Part shown: positions 17,290 through 23,611 of the stretch, in pieces
Position numbering within the stretch: the first letter of the stretch is position 1
How the letters are laid out: the number at the start of each line of letters is the position of its first letter
Origin: an uncultured Dysgonomonas sp.
Lineage (GTDB): Bacteria > Bacteroidota > Bacteroidia > Bacteroidales > Dysgonomonadaceae
DNA length: 33,154 bases
Assembly (NCBI GenBank): GCA_945273835.1
Contig: CALYPL010000020.1
Location: 1-33,154, forward strand
Direction: 5' to 3'
Position numbers and translations under genes: made by a program
Notes under the pieces: generated by a model
Told to the model about the DNA's origin: nothing
What the model saw: the letters and a program-made list of their open reading frames with translations, nothing else
The model's database searches: none

Positions 17290-17319
17290 CTTGTTTTACC
17301 AAAAATAGTTATACCTTTG
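17290..17319 (+). promoter_or_regulatory. Promoter of the ilv operon
   Basis: CTTG (17290-17293), 18 nt, then TACCTTTG (17312-17319), which matches the Bacteroidota promoter pattern. The expected transcription start is about 17323-17326. That gives an ilvD leader of about 180 nt with a 15-nt stretch before the leader ORF. Confidence 0.72.
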
Positions 17320-17340
17320 CGAAGTGTATTTTTATAAAAA

Positions 17341-17406
17341 ATGACAAATTACTTATTACATAACCTCGTCAGCTTAAATTTACTCCTCATTATCCGGGAT
17401 AAATAA
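17341..17406 (+). CDS. Leu/Ile/Val-rich leader peptide of the ilv operon
   Basis: A 21-codon ORF, ATG to TAA, about 15 nt after the predicted transcription start. Ten of 21 residues are branched-chain: Leu at 5, 6, 9, 12, 14, 15 and 16, Val at 10, Ile at 17 and 18. Codons 14-18 are five in a row (TTA CTC CTC ATT ATC). It sits before ilvD, the first branched-chain amino acid gene, and its stop codon touches the GAAAGG element that can act as antiterminator. These facts together indicate an attenuator leader peptide. It needs no function as a protein. A start region without a strong Shine-Dalgarno is normal in this phylum. Confidence 0.8.
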   Translation: MTNYLLHNLVSLNLLLIIRDK

Positions 17407-17483
17407 GAAAGGTGTGTATTTATATAATAAAAATAAGGAATTAAAATATAAGCCTTTCTCAAAACTGGGAAAGGTTTTTTTTT
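17406..17483 (+). promoter_or_regulatory. Candidate ilv transcription attenuator (antiterminator plus terminator)
   Basis: Two copies of GAAAGG (17407-17412 and 17469-17474) can each pair with the one CCTTTC at 17453-17458. Pairing of AGAAAGG (17406-17412) with CCTTTCT (17453-17459) gives a 7-bp antiterminator. Pairing of CCTTTCTC (17453-17460) with GGGAAAGG (17467-17474) gives an 8-bp terminator. A ribosome finishing at the stop codon 17404-17406 would cover the first GAAAGG and favour termination. A ribosome stalled on the Leu/Ile/Val codons would leave it free. A small hairpin TTATC-CGG-GATAA (17390-17402) overlaps the end of the leader ORF. Confidence 0.75.
17453..17483 (+). terminator. 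Leader terminator upstream of ilvD
   Basis: CCTTTCTC, loop AAAACT, GGGAAAGG (one G-T pair), followed at once by nine T residues (17475-17483). It lies 20 nt before the ilvD ATG and downstream of the ilv promoter, so it can only act as a conditional terminator. Confidence 0.85.
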
Positions 17484-17503
17484 AATAGAAAAGTTTAATA
17501 ATT

Positions 17504-19333
17504 ATGGTATTTGAGTTAAGGAGTTCAACAAGTACACAAGGGCGTCGTATGGCAGGAGCCCGTGCTTTATGGAGAGCCAATGGCATGAAAGAAGAGCAGA
17601 TGGGTAAACCTTTGATTGCCATTGTAAATTCATTTACACAGTTTGTTCCGGGACATGTTCATCTGCACGAAATAGGTCAGAAAGTAAAAGCCGAAATTGA
17701 ATCATTAGGATGTTTCGCAGCCGAATTCAATACAATTGCAATTGACGATGGTATAGCTATGGGACACGATGGAATGCTTTATTCACTACCATCACGAGAT
17801 TTGATTGCCGACAGCATAGAATATATGGTTAACGCTCATAAAGCTGACGCTATGGTGTGTATAAGTAATTGTGACAAAATTACTCCCGGTATGCTGATGG
17901 CATCCATGCGATTGAACATTCCCACAATATTTGTTTCCGGCGGTCCGATGGAAGCAGGTGATTTAAACGGTGAACACCTTGACCTTATAGACGCTATGAT
18001 ACGTGCTGCTGATGACACTGTGTCTGACCAAGAAATATATTCCGTTGAACGTGCCGCCTGTCCTACATGCGGATCATGTTCAGGTATGTTTACAGCAAAT
18101 TCCATGAATTGTTTGAATGAAGCAATCGGACTTGCCTTACCGGGTAACGGAACGATAGTAGCAACACATAACAACCGTCTGAAATTATTCAGAGATGCGG
18201 CAAAAACCATTGTAGAAAATGCTTATAAATATTACAGAGACGGCGATGAAAGCGTCTTACCTCGAAATATAGCCACAAAGCAGGCTTTTCTGAACGCTAT
18301 GACCCTCGATATTGCGATGGGTGGATCAACAAACACCATCCTGCACTTACTTGCAGTAGCACAAGAAGCCGAAGTAAACTTCACGATGGATGATATCGAT
18401 AAACTTTCACGTAGAACACCTTGCCTTTGTAAAGTAGCACCCAATACCAATAAATATCACATACAAGACGTTAATCGTGCCGGAGGTATTCTTGGCATCA
18501 TGAACGAACTTGCTAAAGCAAACCTTGTTGATACCACTGTAAAACGAGCAGACGGCATGACATTGGCGGAGGCGATTGACAAATATGATATAACCAAAAC
18601 CTCATTAAATAAAGATGCTGAAATATTGTACAAATCAGCACCGGCAAATAAATTCAATTTGGTCATGGGATCGCAGGATTGTTACTATCCTGAATTAGAT
18701 AAAGACAGGGCAAACGGATGTATCCGAGACATTCAGCACGCATACACCAAAGACGGAGGTTTGGCAATCCTGAAAGGTAATATCGCACTTAACGGATGTG
18801 TGGTAAAAACAGCAGGAGTAGACGAAAGTATATTCAAATTTTCGGGATCAGCCAAAGTATTTCATTCACAAGACGCAGCATGCGAAGGTATCTTACAAGG
18901 CAAAGTACAAGCCGGTGATGTTGTGGTTATAACATACGAAGGTCCTAAAGGCGGACCGGGAATGCAAGAAATGCTATACCCTACCTCTTATATTAAATCC
19001 AGACATTTAGGAAAAGAATGTGCGCTAATCACTGATGGACGCTTCTCAGGTGGAACATCAGGTTTATCAATCGGACACATATCACCGGAAGCCGCTTCGG
19101 GAGGTGCTATCGGTCTTGTACGTGACGGAGATATAATTGAAATAGACATACCGAATCGTTCAATAAACGTAAAATTATCGGATGCAGAACTTGAAAAACG
19201 ACGTGAAGAAGAACTAGCCAAAGGAGCGAAAGCATTTACTCCAAACCGTGAACGCTACGTTTCAAAAGCCTTACGAGCTTATGCAAGTATGGTAAGCTCT
19301 GCCGATTTAGGAGGAGTAAGAATAATAGAATAA
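17504..19333 (+). CDS. ilvD: Dihydroxy-acid dehydratase
   Basis: Dehydrates 2,3-dihydroxy-isovalerate and -methylvalerate to the 2-keto acids, the third common step to valine and isoleucine. At 609 residues it matches the E. coli enzyme closely throughout. The cysteines Cys123 (SNCDKITPG) and Cys192 in [12 protein letters not shown] are in place. The segment near residue 45 reads [13 protein letters not shown], with no cysteine, as in E. coli IlvD. This points to the oxygen-labile [4Fe-4S] type rather than the [2Fe-2S] type of plants and mycobacteria. It is the first structural gene after the leader attenuator and is followed 19 nt later by ilvB. Confidence 0.97.
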
Positions 19334-19352: not shown

Positions 19353-21053
19353 ATGTCAACGGAAATTACAGGAAGTGAAATATTGATTCAGTCGCTGATA
19401 GCTGAAGACGTAGACACGATATTCGGTTATCCGGGAGGTGCTATAATGCCCGTATTCGACTGTTTGTATGATTATAAAGACAAGCTGAATCATATCTTGG
19501 TGCGCCACGAACAAGGTGCTACTCATGCGGCTGAAGGATACGCACGCACATCGGGAAAAGTAGGAGTTGCTTTAGTGACTTCAGGACCGGGAGCAACAAA
19601 TGCCATTACGGGAATAGCCGATGCCATGATAGACAGCACCCCTATGGTTGTCATATCAGGACAGGTTGCTTCATCACTGTTAGGAAGCGACGCTTTTCAA
19701 GAAGCCGATATCGTCGGCATATCACAACCTATAACCAAATGGGCATTTCAGATACGTCGTCCCGAAGATATACAATGGGCAGTATCACGAGCGTTTTATA
19801 TTGCTTCAAGCGGTCGCCCCGGACCCGTATTACTTGACATAACCAAAGACGCACAATTCGGTAAAATTCAGCACACTGAATACAAAAAAACAACCTATAT
19901 CCGAAGCTATCAACCGGTACCCGACATAAATAATGATGATATACGTAAAGCCGCCGAAATTATAAATCAGGCTAAAAAACCTTTAGCACTTGTAGGACAA
20001 GGTGTTATTTTGAGCGGTGCTGAAAACGAACTGAAAACATTTATCGAAAAAGCAGATATACCGTTTGCATCGACTGTATTGGGATTGTCAGCTATGCCTT
20101 CCGATCATCCGCTGAATATGGGAATGTTAGGTATGCATGGAAATGTAGGTCCTAATCTAAAAACAAACGAATGTGACGTATTGATAGCAATCGGAATGCG
20201 TTTCGATGACCGTGTTACAGGTGACCTCAATACATATGCCAAACAGGCAAAAGTTATACATTTTGATATAGACCCTTCTGAAATCAGTAAAAATGTACCT
20301 GTAACAGTTAAAGTTTTGGGAGATGCAAAAACGACTTTAGAAGCTTTAACAAAATATATAAATGAAAACAAGCACACAAGTTGGCGTGAAGAATTTAAAC
20401 CTTGCGAAGAAAAAGAATTTAGCGAGGTTATAAAAAATGAGCTTTATCCCGAATCAGGTATGCTCAAAATGGGTGAGATCATTCATAAAATATCCGAAGC
20501 AACCAACAACGATGCCGTATTGGTGACTGATGTTGGACAAAACCAAATGATGGGTGTGCGATATTTTAAATACAAACAAACACGCAGTGTGGTTACTTCA
20601 GGAGGATTAGGCACTATGGGGTTCGGACTGCCTGCGGCAATCGGCGCAAAATATGGCGCACCCGACAGAACAATATGTTTATTTGTTGGTGACGGAGGCT
20701 TACAAATGACCATACAGGAGTTTGGCACAATCATGCAATACGATGTAAATGTGAAGATAATCGTATTAAACAATCATTTTCTCGGAATGGTACGCCAATG
20801 GCAGGAACTATTTTTTCATGAGCGTTACTCTGAGACTGTAATGAAAGACCCAGATTTTGTAAAAATTGCCGATGCTTATAACATAAAAGCAAAAAAAGTA
20901 TCTGAAAGAGAGAAGTTAGACGAAGCCATTACCGAAATGTTATCACACAAAGGCGCATATCTCCTGAACATAGATGTAGAACCCAAAGGAATGGTCTATC
21001 CGATGATCCCTGCGGGAACATGTGTCACAAATATTTTATATGGTAACGAATAA
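19353..21053 (+). CDS. ilvB: Acetolactate synthase, large subunit
   Basis: ThDP-dependent synthesis of acetolactate and acetohydroxybutyrate, the first common step of branched-chain amino acid synthesis. The 566-residue length is typical. The N-terminal PYR domain has FGYPGGAIMPVFD and the ThDP-activating Glu in RHEQGATHAAEGYAR. The central domain has RFDDRVTGDL. The C-terminal PP domain has the GDGGLQMTIQE...VLNN ThDP/Mg motif and GMVRQWQELFF, found in anabolic AHAS. A regulatory subunit follows 13 nt downstream, which supports an anabolic, feedback-regulated enzyme rather than a catabolic ALS. Confidence 0.97.
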   Translation: MSTEITGSEILIQSLIAEDVDTIFGYPGGAIMPVFDCLYDYKDKLNHILVRHEQGATHAAEGYARTSGKVGVALVTSGPGATNAITGIADAMIDSTPMVVISGQVASSLLGSDAFQEADIVGISQPITKWAFQIRRPEDIQWAVSRAFYIASSGRPGPVLLDITKDAQFGKIQHTEYKKTTYIRSYQPVPDINNDDIRKAAEIINQAKKPLALVGQGVILSGAENELKTFIEKADIPFASTVLGLSAMPSDHPLNMGMLGMHGNVGPNLKTNECDVLIAIGMRFDDRVTGDLNTYAKQAKVIHFDIDPSEISKNVPVTVKVLGDAKTTLEALTKYINENKHTSWREEFKPCEEKEFSEVIKNELYPESGMLKMGEIIHKISEATNNDAVLVTDVGQNQMMGVRYFKYKQTRSVVTSGGLGTMGFGLPAAIGAKYGAPDRTICLFVGDGGLQMTIQEFGTIMQYDVNVKIIVLNNHFLGMVRQWQELFFHERYSETVMKDPDFVKIADAYNIKAKKVSEREKLDEAITEMLSHKGAYLLNIDVEPKGMVYPMIPAGTCVTNILYGNE

Positions 21054-21066
21054 ATATACTGACGAT

Positions 21067-21618
21067 ATGAAAGATAAAACATTATATACGATTACTATAT
21101 TCTCTGAAAATACAGTCGGTTTGCTGAGTCAGGTAACAAGCGTATTTGTACGCCGACAATTGAACATAGAATCGCTTTCAGTATCAGCCTCCGCACTTGA
21201 AGGCATCCATAAGTTCACCATAACCATTTTCTGCGAACCTGAGATCGTTGAGAAAATTGTCCTGCAAATTGATAAAAGGGTTGATGTGCTGAAAGCATAT
21301 TACAACACCAACGAACAGCTTATTTTTCAGGAAATTGCATTGTATAAAATAGCAACACCACTATTTCTAAAAATCAAATCGGCAGAAGATCTTATTAGAA
21401 AATTCAACGCTCGCATACTTGAAATTAATGAAGTATGCGTGGTTATAGAAAAAACAGGACACTACGAAGAAACTCAAAGTCTGTTCGACGAATTGAGTAA
21501 AACTATCGGAGTTTTACAGTTTATCCGTTCAGGTCGTGTGGCGATAACAAAATCAAAGAATGAACGTCTGAGCGATTTACTGGCTCATCTTGACAGAAAA
21601 CATAAAAAGGAAAACTAA
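21067..21618 (+). CDS. ilvN: Acetolactate synthase, small regulatory subunit
   Basis: Regulatory partner of IlvB that confers valine feedback control and raises activity. I choose the ATG at 21067 (183 residues). An in-frame GTG at 21022 would overlap ilvB by 32 nt and precede the conserved start of the ACT domain. The N-terminal ACT domain reads YTITIFSENTVGLLSQVTSVF, with RRQLNIESLSVS. The C-terminal ALS_ss region includes IRKFNARILEI and GVLQFIRSGRVAI. It closes the attenuator-controlled ilvDBN block. A new promoter follows before the thioesterase. Confidence 0.93.
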   Translation: MKDKTLYTITIFSENTVGLLSQVTSVFVRRQLNIESLSVSASALEGIHKFTITIFCEPEIVEKIVLQIDKRVDVLKAYYNTNEQLIFQEIALYKIATPLFLKIKSAEDLIRKFNARILEINEVCVVIEKTGHYEETQSLFDELSKTIGVLQFIRSGRVAITKSKNERLSDLLAHLDRKHKKEN

Positions 21619-21787: not shown

Positions 21788-22531
21788 ATGACAAATAGCA
21801 AAATCGGTACATACAAGTTTCCCATAGACGCATATTTAACCGACTTCAGAGGCAGGGCAACACTCCCGATGATTGGAGGCTTCATGTTACAAGCCGCAAC
21901 TAAACACGCTGAAGAAAGAGGTTTCGGATATAACGAAATGACAGGCAATAAACGTGCGTGGGTATTATCCCGCATGGCAATTGAAATATTTGAATATCCG
22001 AAAAACGATACAGTCTTGACCATCAAAACATGGGTTGCAGATGTAAACCGACTATTCACAGAACGTTATTTCTCGTTTGAAGATGAAAAAGGTAAAATCA
22101 CAGGATACGCAAAAACAGTATGGGCATCCATTGATCTTGCCACACGCCGTCCAACGAATGTGAGCGGACTTGACGAACTTGTTGCTTATATTGAAAAAAA
22201 CGTCGATTGTCCGATAGAAGGGTTAAAAAAAATACCTGCCTTGAAAGATAACTTTGAAGTAGTAAGAGAATTTACCGTAAAATACAGCGATTTAGACATA
22301 AACAAACATCTGAACAGTATGAAATACATCGAACATATAGTAGATGTATTCGACATAAAGATGTATGAACAAAAAGAAATCAAACGCTTTGAAATAAATT
22401 ACATCAATGAAGGACATTATGGATCAAAGCTCGATATTATGAAACGTGATGAAGAACCCGATACAATCTATATACTTGAAATGAAAGACGGAGAAACGAC
22501 TATTTGTTCGTCAAGACTTGTCTGGAAATAA
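21788..22531 (+). CDS. Acyl-ACP thioesterase
   Basis: Hydrolyses acyl-ACP to release free fatty acids. The 247-residue protein has the double hot-dog layout of the FatA/FatB-type family. The first half shows RAWVLSRMAIEIFEYPKNDTVLTIKTWV. The second half shows YSDLDINKHLNSMKYIEH, which contains the catalytic Asn-His signature (DxNxHxNN-like), then FEINYINEGHYGSKLDI. No signal peptide is present, so it is cytosolic. Its place between ilvN and ilvC, in the same direction and 33 nt before ilvC, suggests a link between branched-chain keto acid supply and fatty acid release. That link is inference from context. Confidence 0.88.
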   Translation: MTNSKIGTYKFPIDAYLTDFRGRATLPMIGGFMLQAATKHAEERGFGYNEMTGNKRAWVLSRMAIEIFEYPKNDTVLTIKTWVADVNRLFTERYFSFEDEKGKITGYAKTVWASIDLATRRPTNVSGLDELVAYIEKNVDCPIEGLKKIPALKDNFEVVREFTVKYSDLDINKHLNSMKYIEHIVDVFDIKMYEQKEIKRFEINYINEGHYGSKLDIMKRDEEPDTIYILEMKDGETTICSSRLVWK

Positions 22532-22564: not shown

Positions 22565-23611
22565 ATGGCAGAATTAAATTTTGGAGGAGTAGTTGAAAAA
22601 GTTATCACTCGTGAAGAATTTCCATTAGAAAAAGCAAGAGAAGTATTGAAAAATGAAACAATAGCCGTTATCGGTTACGGAGTTCAAGGACCCGGACAGG
22701 CTCTCAACCTACGTGACAATGGTTTTAATGTAATTGTAGGACAACGTAAAGGTGGTAAAACATGGGAAAAAGCCATTGCTGACGGATGGGTTCCCGGAGA
22801 AACACTTTTCGATATTGAAGAAGCAGCAGAGCGAGGAACAATTATTCAATATCTTTTGTCAGACGCAGCTCAGATTGAAGTTTGGCCAAAATTAAAAAAA
22901 CACCTGAAACCCGGAAACGCTTTATATTTCTCTCATGGTTTCGGAATCACTTATAAAGAACGCACAGGCATAGTACCACCTAATGATGTTGATGTAATAT
23001 TAATCGCACCAAAAGGATCAGGAACAAGCCTTCGCAGAATGTTTCTTGAAGGTAGAGGTCTGAATTCAAGCTATGCAATATTTCAAGATGCCACCGGCAA
23101 AGCATTCGATCGCACTATTGCATTAGGAATCGGAGTAGGTTCAGGATATCTCTTTGAAACAGACTTCAAACGTGAAGTTTATTCTGACCTTACAGGTGAA
23201 CGTGGTACACTAATGGGAGCTATACAAGGCTTGCTTTTAGCACAATACGAAGTATTACGTGAAAATGGACACACTCCATCGGAAGCATTTAACGAAACTG
23301 TAGAAGAATTGACACAATCGTTAATGCCTTTGTTTGCAGAAAAAGGAATGGACTGGATGTATGCCAATTGTTCCACAACAGCACAACGTGGTGCGCTTGA
23401 CTGGATGACACCGTTCCACGATGCAACCAAACCTGTATTTGAGAAATTATACAAAGAAGTGGCTTGCGGAAATGAAGCACAACGATCAATCGACACCAAT
23501 TCTCAGCCGGATTATCGTGAAAAACTCGAAAAAGAATTGAAAGCCCTTCGTGAAAGCGAAATGTGGCGTGCCGGAGAAACAGTACGTAAATTACGTCCTG
23601 AAAACAATTAA
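22565..23611 (+). CDS. ilvC: Ketol-acid reductoisomerase
   Basis: Isomerises and reduces acetolactate or acetohydroxybutyrate with NAD(P)H and Mg. At 348 residues it has class I length. The Rossmann motif is GYGVQGPGQALNLRD. The following loop RKGGKTW carries an Arg and Lys residues as in NADPH enzymes. Metal-site motifs are SDLTGERGTLMG (Asp and Glu) and EELTQSLMPLFAEKG. NCSTTAQRGALDW and the terminal MWRAGETVRKLRP resemble the branch that includes plant enzymes more than the usual bacterial class I sequence. It is the last gene of the cluster and is followed by a 14-bp terminator stem. Confidence 0.96.
   Translation: MAELNFGGVVEKVITREEFPLEKAREVLKNETIAVIGYGVQGPGQALNLRDNGFNVIVGQRKGGKTWEKAIADGWVPGETLFDIEEAAERGTIIQYLLSDAAQIEVWPKLKKHLKPGNALYFSHGFGITYKERTGIVPPNDVDVILIAPKGSGTSLRRMFLEGRGLNSSYAIFQDATGKAFDRTIALGIGVGSGYLFETDFKREVYSDLTGERGTLMGAIQGLLLAQYEVLRENGHTPSEAFNETVEELTQSLMPLFAEKGMDWMYANCSTTAQRGALDWMTPFHDATKPVFEKLYKEVACGNEAQRSIDTNSQPDYREKLEKELKALRESEMWRAGETVRKLRPENN

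Follow-up and report, generated by a model that had tools for sequence, protein, structure and literature searches.

The closest described system within the phylum of the element analyzed here is the Bacteroid-trp RNA (RF01692), entered in Table 1 of PMC2864571 as the "Bacteroidete tryptophan peptide leader RNA". As far as that table entry goes, the two elements share a phylum, a similar leader size (131 positions in RF01692) and the character of a cis-regulatory peptide leader; RF01692 differs in sensing Trp rather than Leu/Ile/Val. The ilvBNC attenuator of Corynebacterium glutamicum, as presented in an excerpt of PMC11857589, likewise combines a branched-chain amino acid leader peptide with terminator, antiterminator and anti-antiterminator hairpins, but it belongs to another phylum, precedes another gene order, encodes a 15-aa leader and has a transcript start that adjoins the leader start codon. 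In Staphylococcus aureus, according to a portion of PMC5794164, ilvD also comes first behind a leader peptide (26 aa, Ile/Leu-rich) and the terminator lies 52 nt past the leader stop; this attenuator differs in that its proposed antiterminator engages the poly-U tail while the terminator stem stays intact, and in that CodY also acts. Within the Bacteroidota, small ORFs in 5' UTRs of B. thetaiotaomicron are termed reminiscent of leader peptides in a passage of PMC7366714, and a section of PMC2965389 states that as of 2010, ermC apart, none had been shown beyond Proteobacteria and Actinobacteria. The thr, leu, his, trp and ilv leaders of E. coli carry codons for the end product and a terminator before the first gene, as does the present locus, and in thrL, too, the antiterminator strand as detected shares bases with the leader stop. 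The 2010 survey of bacterial attenuation by Lopatovskaya et al. may reportedly include Bacteroidota. No paper describing ilvD, leuA or hisG attenuators in Bacteroidota was recognized in the open literature, which was viewed mostly as titles.

The window, that is, the whole stretch of DNA analyzed, comprises 33,154 nucleotides from an uncultured Dysgonomonas sp., and all features given here lie on its forward strand. A promoter-like TAnnTTTG, which we take to be a Bacteroidota -7 type promoter motif, was read from the sequence at 17312..17319. It is followed by a leader ORF of 21 codons, MTNYLLHNLVSLNLLLIIRDK, at 17341..17406, ten of whose codons specify Leu, Ile or Val (L/I/V), with five in a row as codons 14-18 (Leu-Leu-Leu-Ile-Ile, the presumed control codons, 17380..17394). 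The leader stop codon TAA (17404..17406) abuts strand A, the predicted antiterminator strand, with GAAAGG directly 3' of the stop at 17407..17412; from covariation and a test independent of A (below), strand A was delimited as AGAAAGG at 17406..17412. After a gap of 40 nt from GAAAGG comes the left arm of a terminator (strand C, CCTTTCTC, 17453..17460), then its right arm (strand D, GGGAAAGG, 17467..17474), both assigned from sequence, covariation and folding, and a run of nine T residues (17475..17483). The preliminary description had recorded the promoter-like motif, the ORF with its codon run, the stop abutting GAAAGG, the 40-nt gap and the terminator with its nine T residues, all of which were confirmed from the sequence. 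In the window the A:C helix is some 7 bp long (AGAAAGG:CCUUUCU); most close relatives have a longer one. Two further strands were located by RNAalifold on 26 close leaders: segment 1, comprising leader codons 6-8 (17357..17364), and its partner segment 2 (GGTGTGTA, 17411..17418), which shares with strand A the last two bases of the latter.

The first gene predicted to be controlled is ilvD, encoding dihydroxy-acid dehydratase (17504..19333; NCBIfam NF009103, TIGR00110). It is followed by ilvB, the acetolactate synthase large subunit (19353..21053; NCBIfam TIGR00118), ilvN, the small subunit (21022..21618; NCBIfam TIGR00119, Pfam PF10369), whose listed start overlaps ilvB and whose true start is probably further downstream, an acyl-ACP thioesterase gene within the ilv cluster, between ilvN and ilvC (21788..22531; Pfam PF01643, PF20791), and ilvC, ketol-acid reductoisomerase (22565..23611; NCBIfam TIGR00465). 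Gene order and spacing point to a co-transcribed operon ilvD-ilvB-ilvN-acyl-ACP thioesterase-ilvC. The unit had earlier been given as ilvDBN; these three genes are indeed present, but the cluster also holds the thioesterase gene and ilvC.

Occurrence by chance was assessed with a detector built to recognize three elements: a terminator, a strand able to pair with its left arm, and an ORF rich in L/I/V that stops nearby. The window scored 66.5, whereas the highest score among 507 dinucleotide shuffles of the regions upstream of ilvD was 50.2; a cut of 52 was set once this null maximum was known. An ORF as rich in L/I/V as that of the leader arose in 8 of 5000 leader shuffles, and an ORF this rich in L/I/V was found in 2 of 2644 window tiles (125 nt, both strands), where by arithmetic exactly two tiles contain the leader ORF itself. 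The exact triad pattern of strands A, C and D occurred once in the window's genome; in 31 genomes it gave 19 matches distributed over 18 of them, 16 upstream of ilvD, with 3 for the reversed control.

Relatives of the window's ilvD came from Bacteroidales. All 24 genomes of the same genus that gave an ilvD match carried the attenuator; a 25th genome of the genus (71% complete) gave no ilvD match. Overall, 75 of 129 ilvD regions scored above the cut, as did 13 of 40 in a sample of the phylum, for which 89 of 118 genomes gave a match and 40 of these 89 were read upstream, loci L236-L264 lying outside the scan. Five of the 75 (L051, L058, L062, L086 and L129) were set aside by eye after scoring, and the 70 rows kept consist of 27 of 30 loci from the set of the window's relatives, 7 of 19 from a second set and 36 of 80 named loci. 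There is some overlap between the named and the unnamed loci (L055 and L121 read alike). Bacteroides graminisolvens, Phocaeicola faecalis, three Alistipes MAGs, a Marinifilum and a Labilibaculum were among the named loci that passed. The leaders of L121, L122, L040 and L054 were plausible by eye yet scored below positive, and none of 16 named loci outside Bacteroidota (three with less than 200 nt upstream) exceeded the cut. In L027, L029 and L030 a coding sequence, presumably leuB-like, lies directly 5' of ilvD and the attenuator is absent. TAnnTTTG lay no more than 75 nt from the leader ATG in 57 of 66 ilvD leaders (5.0 expected), 22 of 22 leuA leaders (1.9) and 19 of 20 hisG leaders (2.5), and in only 2 of 12 of the phylum set (1.4). 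Judged by comparison of sequences, the attenuator looks like a real, conserved element of a known kind, common to many Bacteroidales.

Two observations on individual loci are recorded here. Locus L129 (G057 contig 112, 1-457) apparently carries two tandem attenuators before ilvD, the first with GAGAAGGG..CCCTTCTC and a terminator, truncated by the contig end, the second with an L/I/V-rich ORF, GGGAAAGG..CCTTCCC and a terminator. Nine leaders of the phylum sample (within L285-L302), located before more distant ilvD genes, encode Ile/Val-rich, Leu-poor peptides like MITRTIITVIINVIGTKYRPGK and have a GGGAAG/CTTCCC triad.

Strand A, with its earlier-proposed competition between two GAAAGG copies for the CCTTTC left arm, was examined in a MAFFT alignment of the 70 distinct rows, which are related, non-independent and in part selected for A:C complementarity. 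Standard A:C pairs occupied 90.6% of cells, compared with 45.6-64.2% when slid by 1-3 columns and 84.2% when shuffled, and two-sided changes numbered 45 cells against 12.9 +/- 5.4 in shuffles (0 of 500 reached 45). For D:C, 92.1% of cells held a standard pair and two-sided changes numbered 47 against 16.3 +/- 3.8 (0 of 500 reached 47). The competition is supported by this comparison, both A:C and C:D covarying over the 70 rows. In one column, strand C changed from T to A in L123, L124 and L128, with T in both A and D, and L127 had G in strand C with C in both partner strands. Of the 15 rows in which strand C has a different base at that column, 8 retained D:C and lost A:C, so A:C is less strict than D:C. 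An initial swap test of A:C was weak, with the own C strand beating at least 95% of unlike ones in 29 of 88 leaders, because CTTTCTC is common to most C strands.

A test independent of A was therefore of value, in which leaders were picked for terminator and ORF alone. The score against strand C was 22.0 for the stop region and 9.6 for both the ORF interior and the spacer, and A:C reached p<=0.05 in 57 of 69 ilvD leaders, the window leader scoring 17.8 (p 0.02). In 7 of the 12 ilvD leaders which failed, the ORF passes A and stops 16-21 nt after the start of A, so that the stop region tested contains little of A. Elsewhere the test succeeded in 8 of 11 phylum, 14 of 21 hisG, 4 of 18 leuA and 1 of 3 trp leaders. 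GAAAGG as a ribosome-binding site was considered and rejected, the strand covarying with C.

At gathering score, no Rfam family was found in the window, including RF01692, the T-box and the enteric His, Leu, Thr and Trp leaders, and T-box, riboswitch and PyrR elements were rejected as candidates in the lack of any such match. There were six weak matches (E up to 5), none of them a T-box, and the only leader-peptide family among these was Phe_leader (18.6 bits against a gathering score of 55). A leader bound by a protein or ligand (T-box, riboswitch or PyrR-like) in place of a ribosome sensor could point to one weak match to PyrR, at 23.5 bits against 54 (E 0.28), but this falls below gathering score and such a leader would leave the ORF and the geometry unexplained; we consider it extremely improbable. 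The window and seven related ilvD, leuA and hisG loci also failed the RF01692 model, and a sequence relation to the E. coli leaders, judged by Rfam alone, gave no match.

Upstream regions of other amino acid biosynthetic genes were scored in the same way. Above the cut were 22 of 25 leuA regions and 12 of 24 hisG regions; for hisG, 24 of 27 places were used (three of genome G013 were excluded), and later tests used 20 leaders with an HHH run and a score >44. The composition of the leader matched the operon, the hisG leaders carrying His codons and the leuA leaders Ile/Leu codons. A further attenuator of the same type is present in genome G000, that of the window, in the leuA leader MKSYSSLISIIILLWKFSRVSFAV (L167, G000 contig 2), which has a strong first hairpin (duplex p 0.005). 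A hisG match was absent from this genome (2.19 Mb, 99.6% complete), which may have lost histidine synthesis; it is smaller than most same-genus genomes examined (2.0-5.2 Mb, several incomplete). In relatives, the hisG leaders L179-L203 carry at least three consecutive His codons and a GGTAAG/CTTACC triad; their CAT repeats can also pair with a spacer ATGATG, which would make a first hairpin unlike that of ilvD. None of 21 trp loci exceeded the cut, most failing because trpE follows another gene. A few trpE loci had WWW or WW peptides (L208, L214, L225 and L226). One trp locus, L206, matched RF01692 (50.2 bits against 49) and the other four trp loci tested did not. For thrA, 12 of the 26 match places were examined, using estimated gene starts, and none of these 12 stretches showed an attenuator. 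At L378, a short Thr-rich ORF, MIRTTEHTAILTTTPWGVQ (ORF at 459), lies upstream of thrA without a detectable triad.

These comparisons bear on a simpler account, in which a terminator acting at a constant rate separates ilvD from its promoter and the ORF is a small membrane protein or a product of chance. Hydrophobic small proteins are common, and the leader peptide is hydrophobic and partly conserved among close relatives, as this account would have it. However, strand A covaries with both C and D and lies at the stop codon regardless of selection, and the residues of the leaders fit their operons (Ile/Leu for leuA, His for hisG, Trp runs in a few trpE leaders). We therefore hold a constant terminator to be very improbable. 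Anatomy and comparison together point, with a high degree of confidence, to transcription attenuation mediated by the ribosome, in its classic four-segment form.

The placing of the control codons was measured in 83 leaders (70 ilvD and 13 phylum). Counted from the first base of the final L/I/V codon in the cluster, the distance to the start of A, on which the detector placed no direct bound, had a median of 14 nt (interquartile range 13-15, range -10 to 21); it was at least 12 nt in 73 leaders and less than 12 nt in 10. In 42 of the 83, strand A started on the first base of the stop codon or as many as 3 nt upstream. Assuming a footprint that reaches from -18 to +12 relative to the A-site codon, a ribosome on the stop codon would overlap A in all 83 leaders, a result partly built in as the detector bounded the stop-to-A range. 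The median of 14 nt fits the proposal that a ribosome at the stop covers A and that a stalled one mostly leaves it free. The share of L/I/V codons was 54% in the leader frame versus 26% and 9% in the other two, and the leader frame ranked top in 81 of the 83.

Equilibrium folding of the growing window RNA, the two-way folding that had been suggested, gave a probability of A:C pairing of 1.00 with A free and D not yet emerged and of 0.00 with a ribosome at the stop. Once the RNA extended through D, the terminator was favoured in every ribosome case (probability at least 0.87), so that the decision between the two structures must be a kinetic one. At the stage with C out and D not yet out, equilibrium A:C pairing exceeded 0.5 in 56 of 70 ilvD, 8 of 13 phylum, 1 of 22 leuA and 4 of 20 hisG leaders.

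The first (1:2) hairpin was studied by several approaches. Fold z scores from ORF start to C, relative to shuffles, averaged -1.39 for ilvD (70), -1.72 for phylum, -2.15 for leuA, -2.13 for hisG and -2.37 for the five E. coli leaders; the window gave -0.34. RNAalifold on the 26 close leaders (24 of the same genus and 2 of the same family) predicted an 8-bp helix between codons 6-8 and a GGUAUGUA-like stretch overlapping the end of A, and an inner helix of 6 bp as well, with 97.6% and 98.1% of outer and inner cells paired in the same 26 rows from which the structure was predicted. The window copy retains 7 of the 8 outer pairs and 4 of the 6 inner ones. Applied to the alignments of leuA and hisG leaders, RNAalifold found little or nothing (energy -1.51 and 0.00). 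Among 60 leaders, of which just 3 are from the close 26, own 1:2 duplexes averaged -13.9 kcal/mol versus -11.1 when swapped (Wilcoxon 3e-7), with 12-13 of the 60 in the top 5%. The 1:2 pairing is made with different letters in L120 (AACAUAGUC:GGCUGUGUU) and L127 (AUACAUAUC:GGUAUGUAU), and L056 has a 14-bp first-hairpin helix covering A. Compared with shuffled ORFs, the duplex reached p<=0.05 in 30 of 70 ilvD, 1 of 13 phylum, 19 of 22 leuA and 5 of 20 hisG leaders. In the ensemble, pairing of the ORF with A plus the 8 nt that follow reached the same level in 34 of 70, 4 of 13, 19 of 22 and 3 of 20, respectively. In hisG leaders, ORF pairing of A showed no excess (0.16 versus 0.16 shuffled). The window's own first hairpin gave a duplex p of 0.55 and an ensemble p of 0.75, with own-versus-swapped ranks of 0.29 and 0.56.

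The preliminary description had proposed a simpler and more compact design than the enteric one, working by direct masking with no separate pause hairpin. The simplicity is not supported for the ilvD family, where the ORF of relatives pairs with A and the bases following it beyond chance in 34 of 70 leaders; as to the pause hairpin, the evidence goes against the proposal for the family but not for the window's own copy, in which the first hairpin is weak. Nor is the leader compact, as its 134 nt from the ATG to the end of GGGAAAGG are about the length of the five E. coli leaders, which measure 108-151 nt from ATG to terminator end compared with a median of 138 in the 70 ilvD leaders. It does differ from the E. 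coli leaders in the weak first hairpin and in a control cluster located between segments 1 and 2; for E. coli trpL the detector chose the wrong A, and folding probabilities for that leader are meaningless. By sequence comparison and predicted folding, the layout of the ilvD and leuA families is the classic one of 1:2, 2:3 and 3:4, the window copy having a weak first hairpin.

A version of the switch in which the ribosome has no role beyond covering A at the stop codon, the first hairpin is minor and an untranslated leader reads through by default would apply to this copy and perhaps to many ilvD leaders. It draws on the fraction of ilvD leaders in which A:C pairing dominates before D emerges, against those of leuA and hisG, on the A:C probability of 1.00 in the window and on the non-significance of the window's first hairpin. 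Against it stand the significant pairing of the ORF with A and the following bases in nearly half of the ilvD leaders, the own-versus-swapped difference (p 3e-7) and the lowering of P(2:3) by the real ORF, to 0.78 versus 0.94 with shuffled ORFs; moreover, equilibrium folding ignores kinetics. We judge masking by itself to be unlikely, if deserving of some weight. Masking by the ribosome may nevertheless be the decisive step in the window's genome, because folding there gives a weak first hairpin and A:C wins once C is out.

Under the four-segment attenuator that we favour, a ribosome supplied with plentiful charged Leu, Ile and Val tRNAs would reach the stop and cover A, whereupon C would pair with D and transcription would end upstream of ilvD. 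When one of these charged tRNAs is short, the ribosome would stall on the control codons, approximately 14 nt short of A, leaving A free to pair with C, and RNA polymerase would continue into ilvD-B-N-thioesterase-C. In between, the first hairpin would probably sequester A, if weakly in the window's copy.

Codon choice within the leaders was also uneven. CTC made up 86 of 131 Leu codons in the 26 close leaders versus 54 of 837 in 21 ORFs of the window; the corresponding counts were 40 of 94 for the leuA leaders, 3 of 7 for the window's own leader and 24 of 154 for 44 leaders from other Bacteroidales. ARAGORN reported one tRNA-Leu(GAG) in the stretches holding all 37 tRNA matches, in a list without tRNA-Leu(TAA) and so perhaps incomplete. 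A broader reading, which we put forward tentatively and think somewhat less probable than its negation, is that an uncatalogued set of attenuators extends across much of Bacteroidota (ilvD, leuA and hisG in addition to the known trp), each with its control cluster about 14 nt from an antiterminator strand at the stop codon, and that the ilvD switch of close relatives senses mainly the rare Leu codon CTC through tRNA-Leu(GAG) and depends on ribosome masking as A:C outcompetes the first hairpin. The part concerning CTC is countered by its low share in the other Bacteroidales leaders and its count in the window's own, and pairing constraints could favour CTC.

These data suggest that translation-coupled attenuation, best studied in enteric bacteria, is widespread in Bacteroidota, with only the trp version found in Rfam. 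Divergence of the triad in several lineages has produced natural compensatory variants that can guide the design of mutants, and the tight spacing offers a natural ruler for ribosome-RNA polymerase coupling in Bacteroidota. For the Bacteroidales, which are major members of the animal gut community, the leader would offer a well-defined point at which control of branched-chain amino acid synthesis can be tested.
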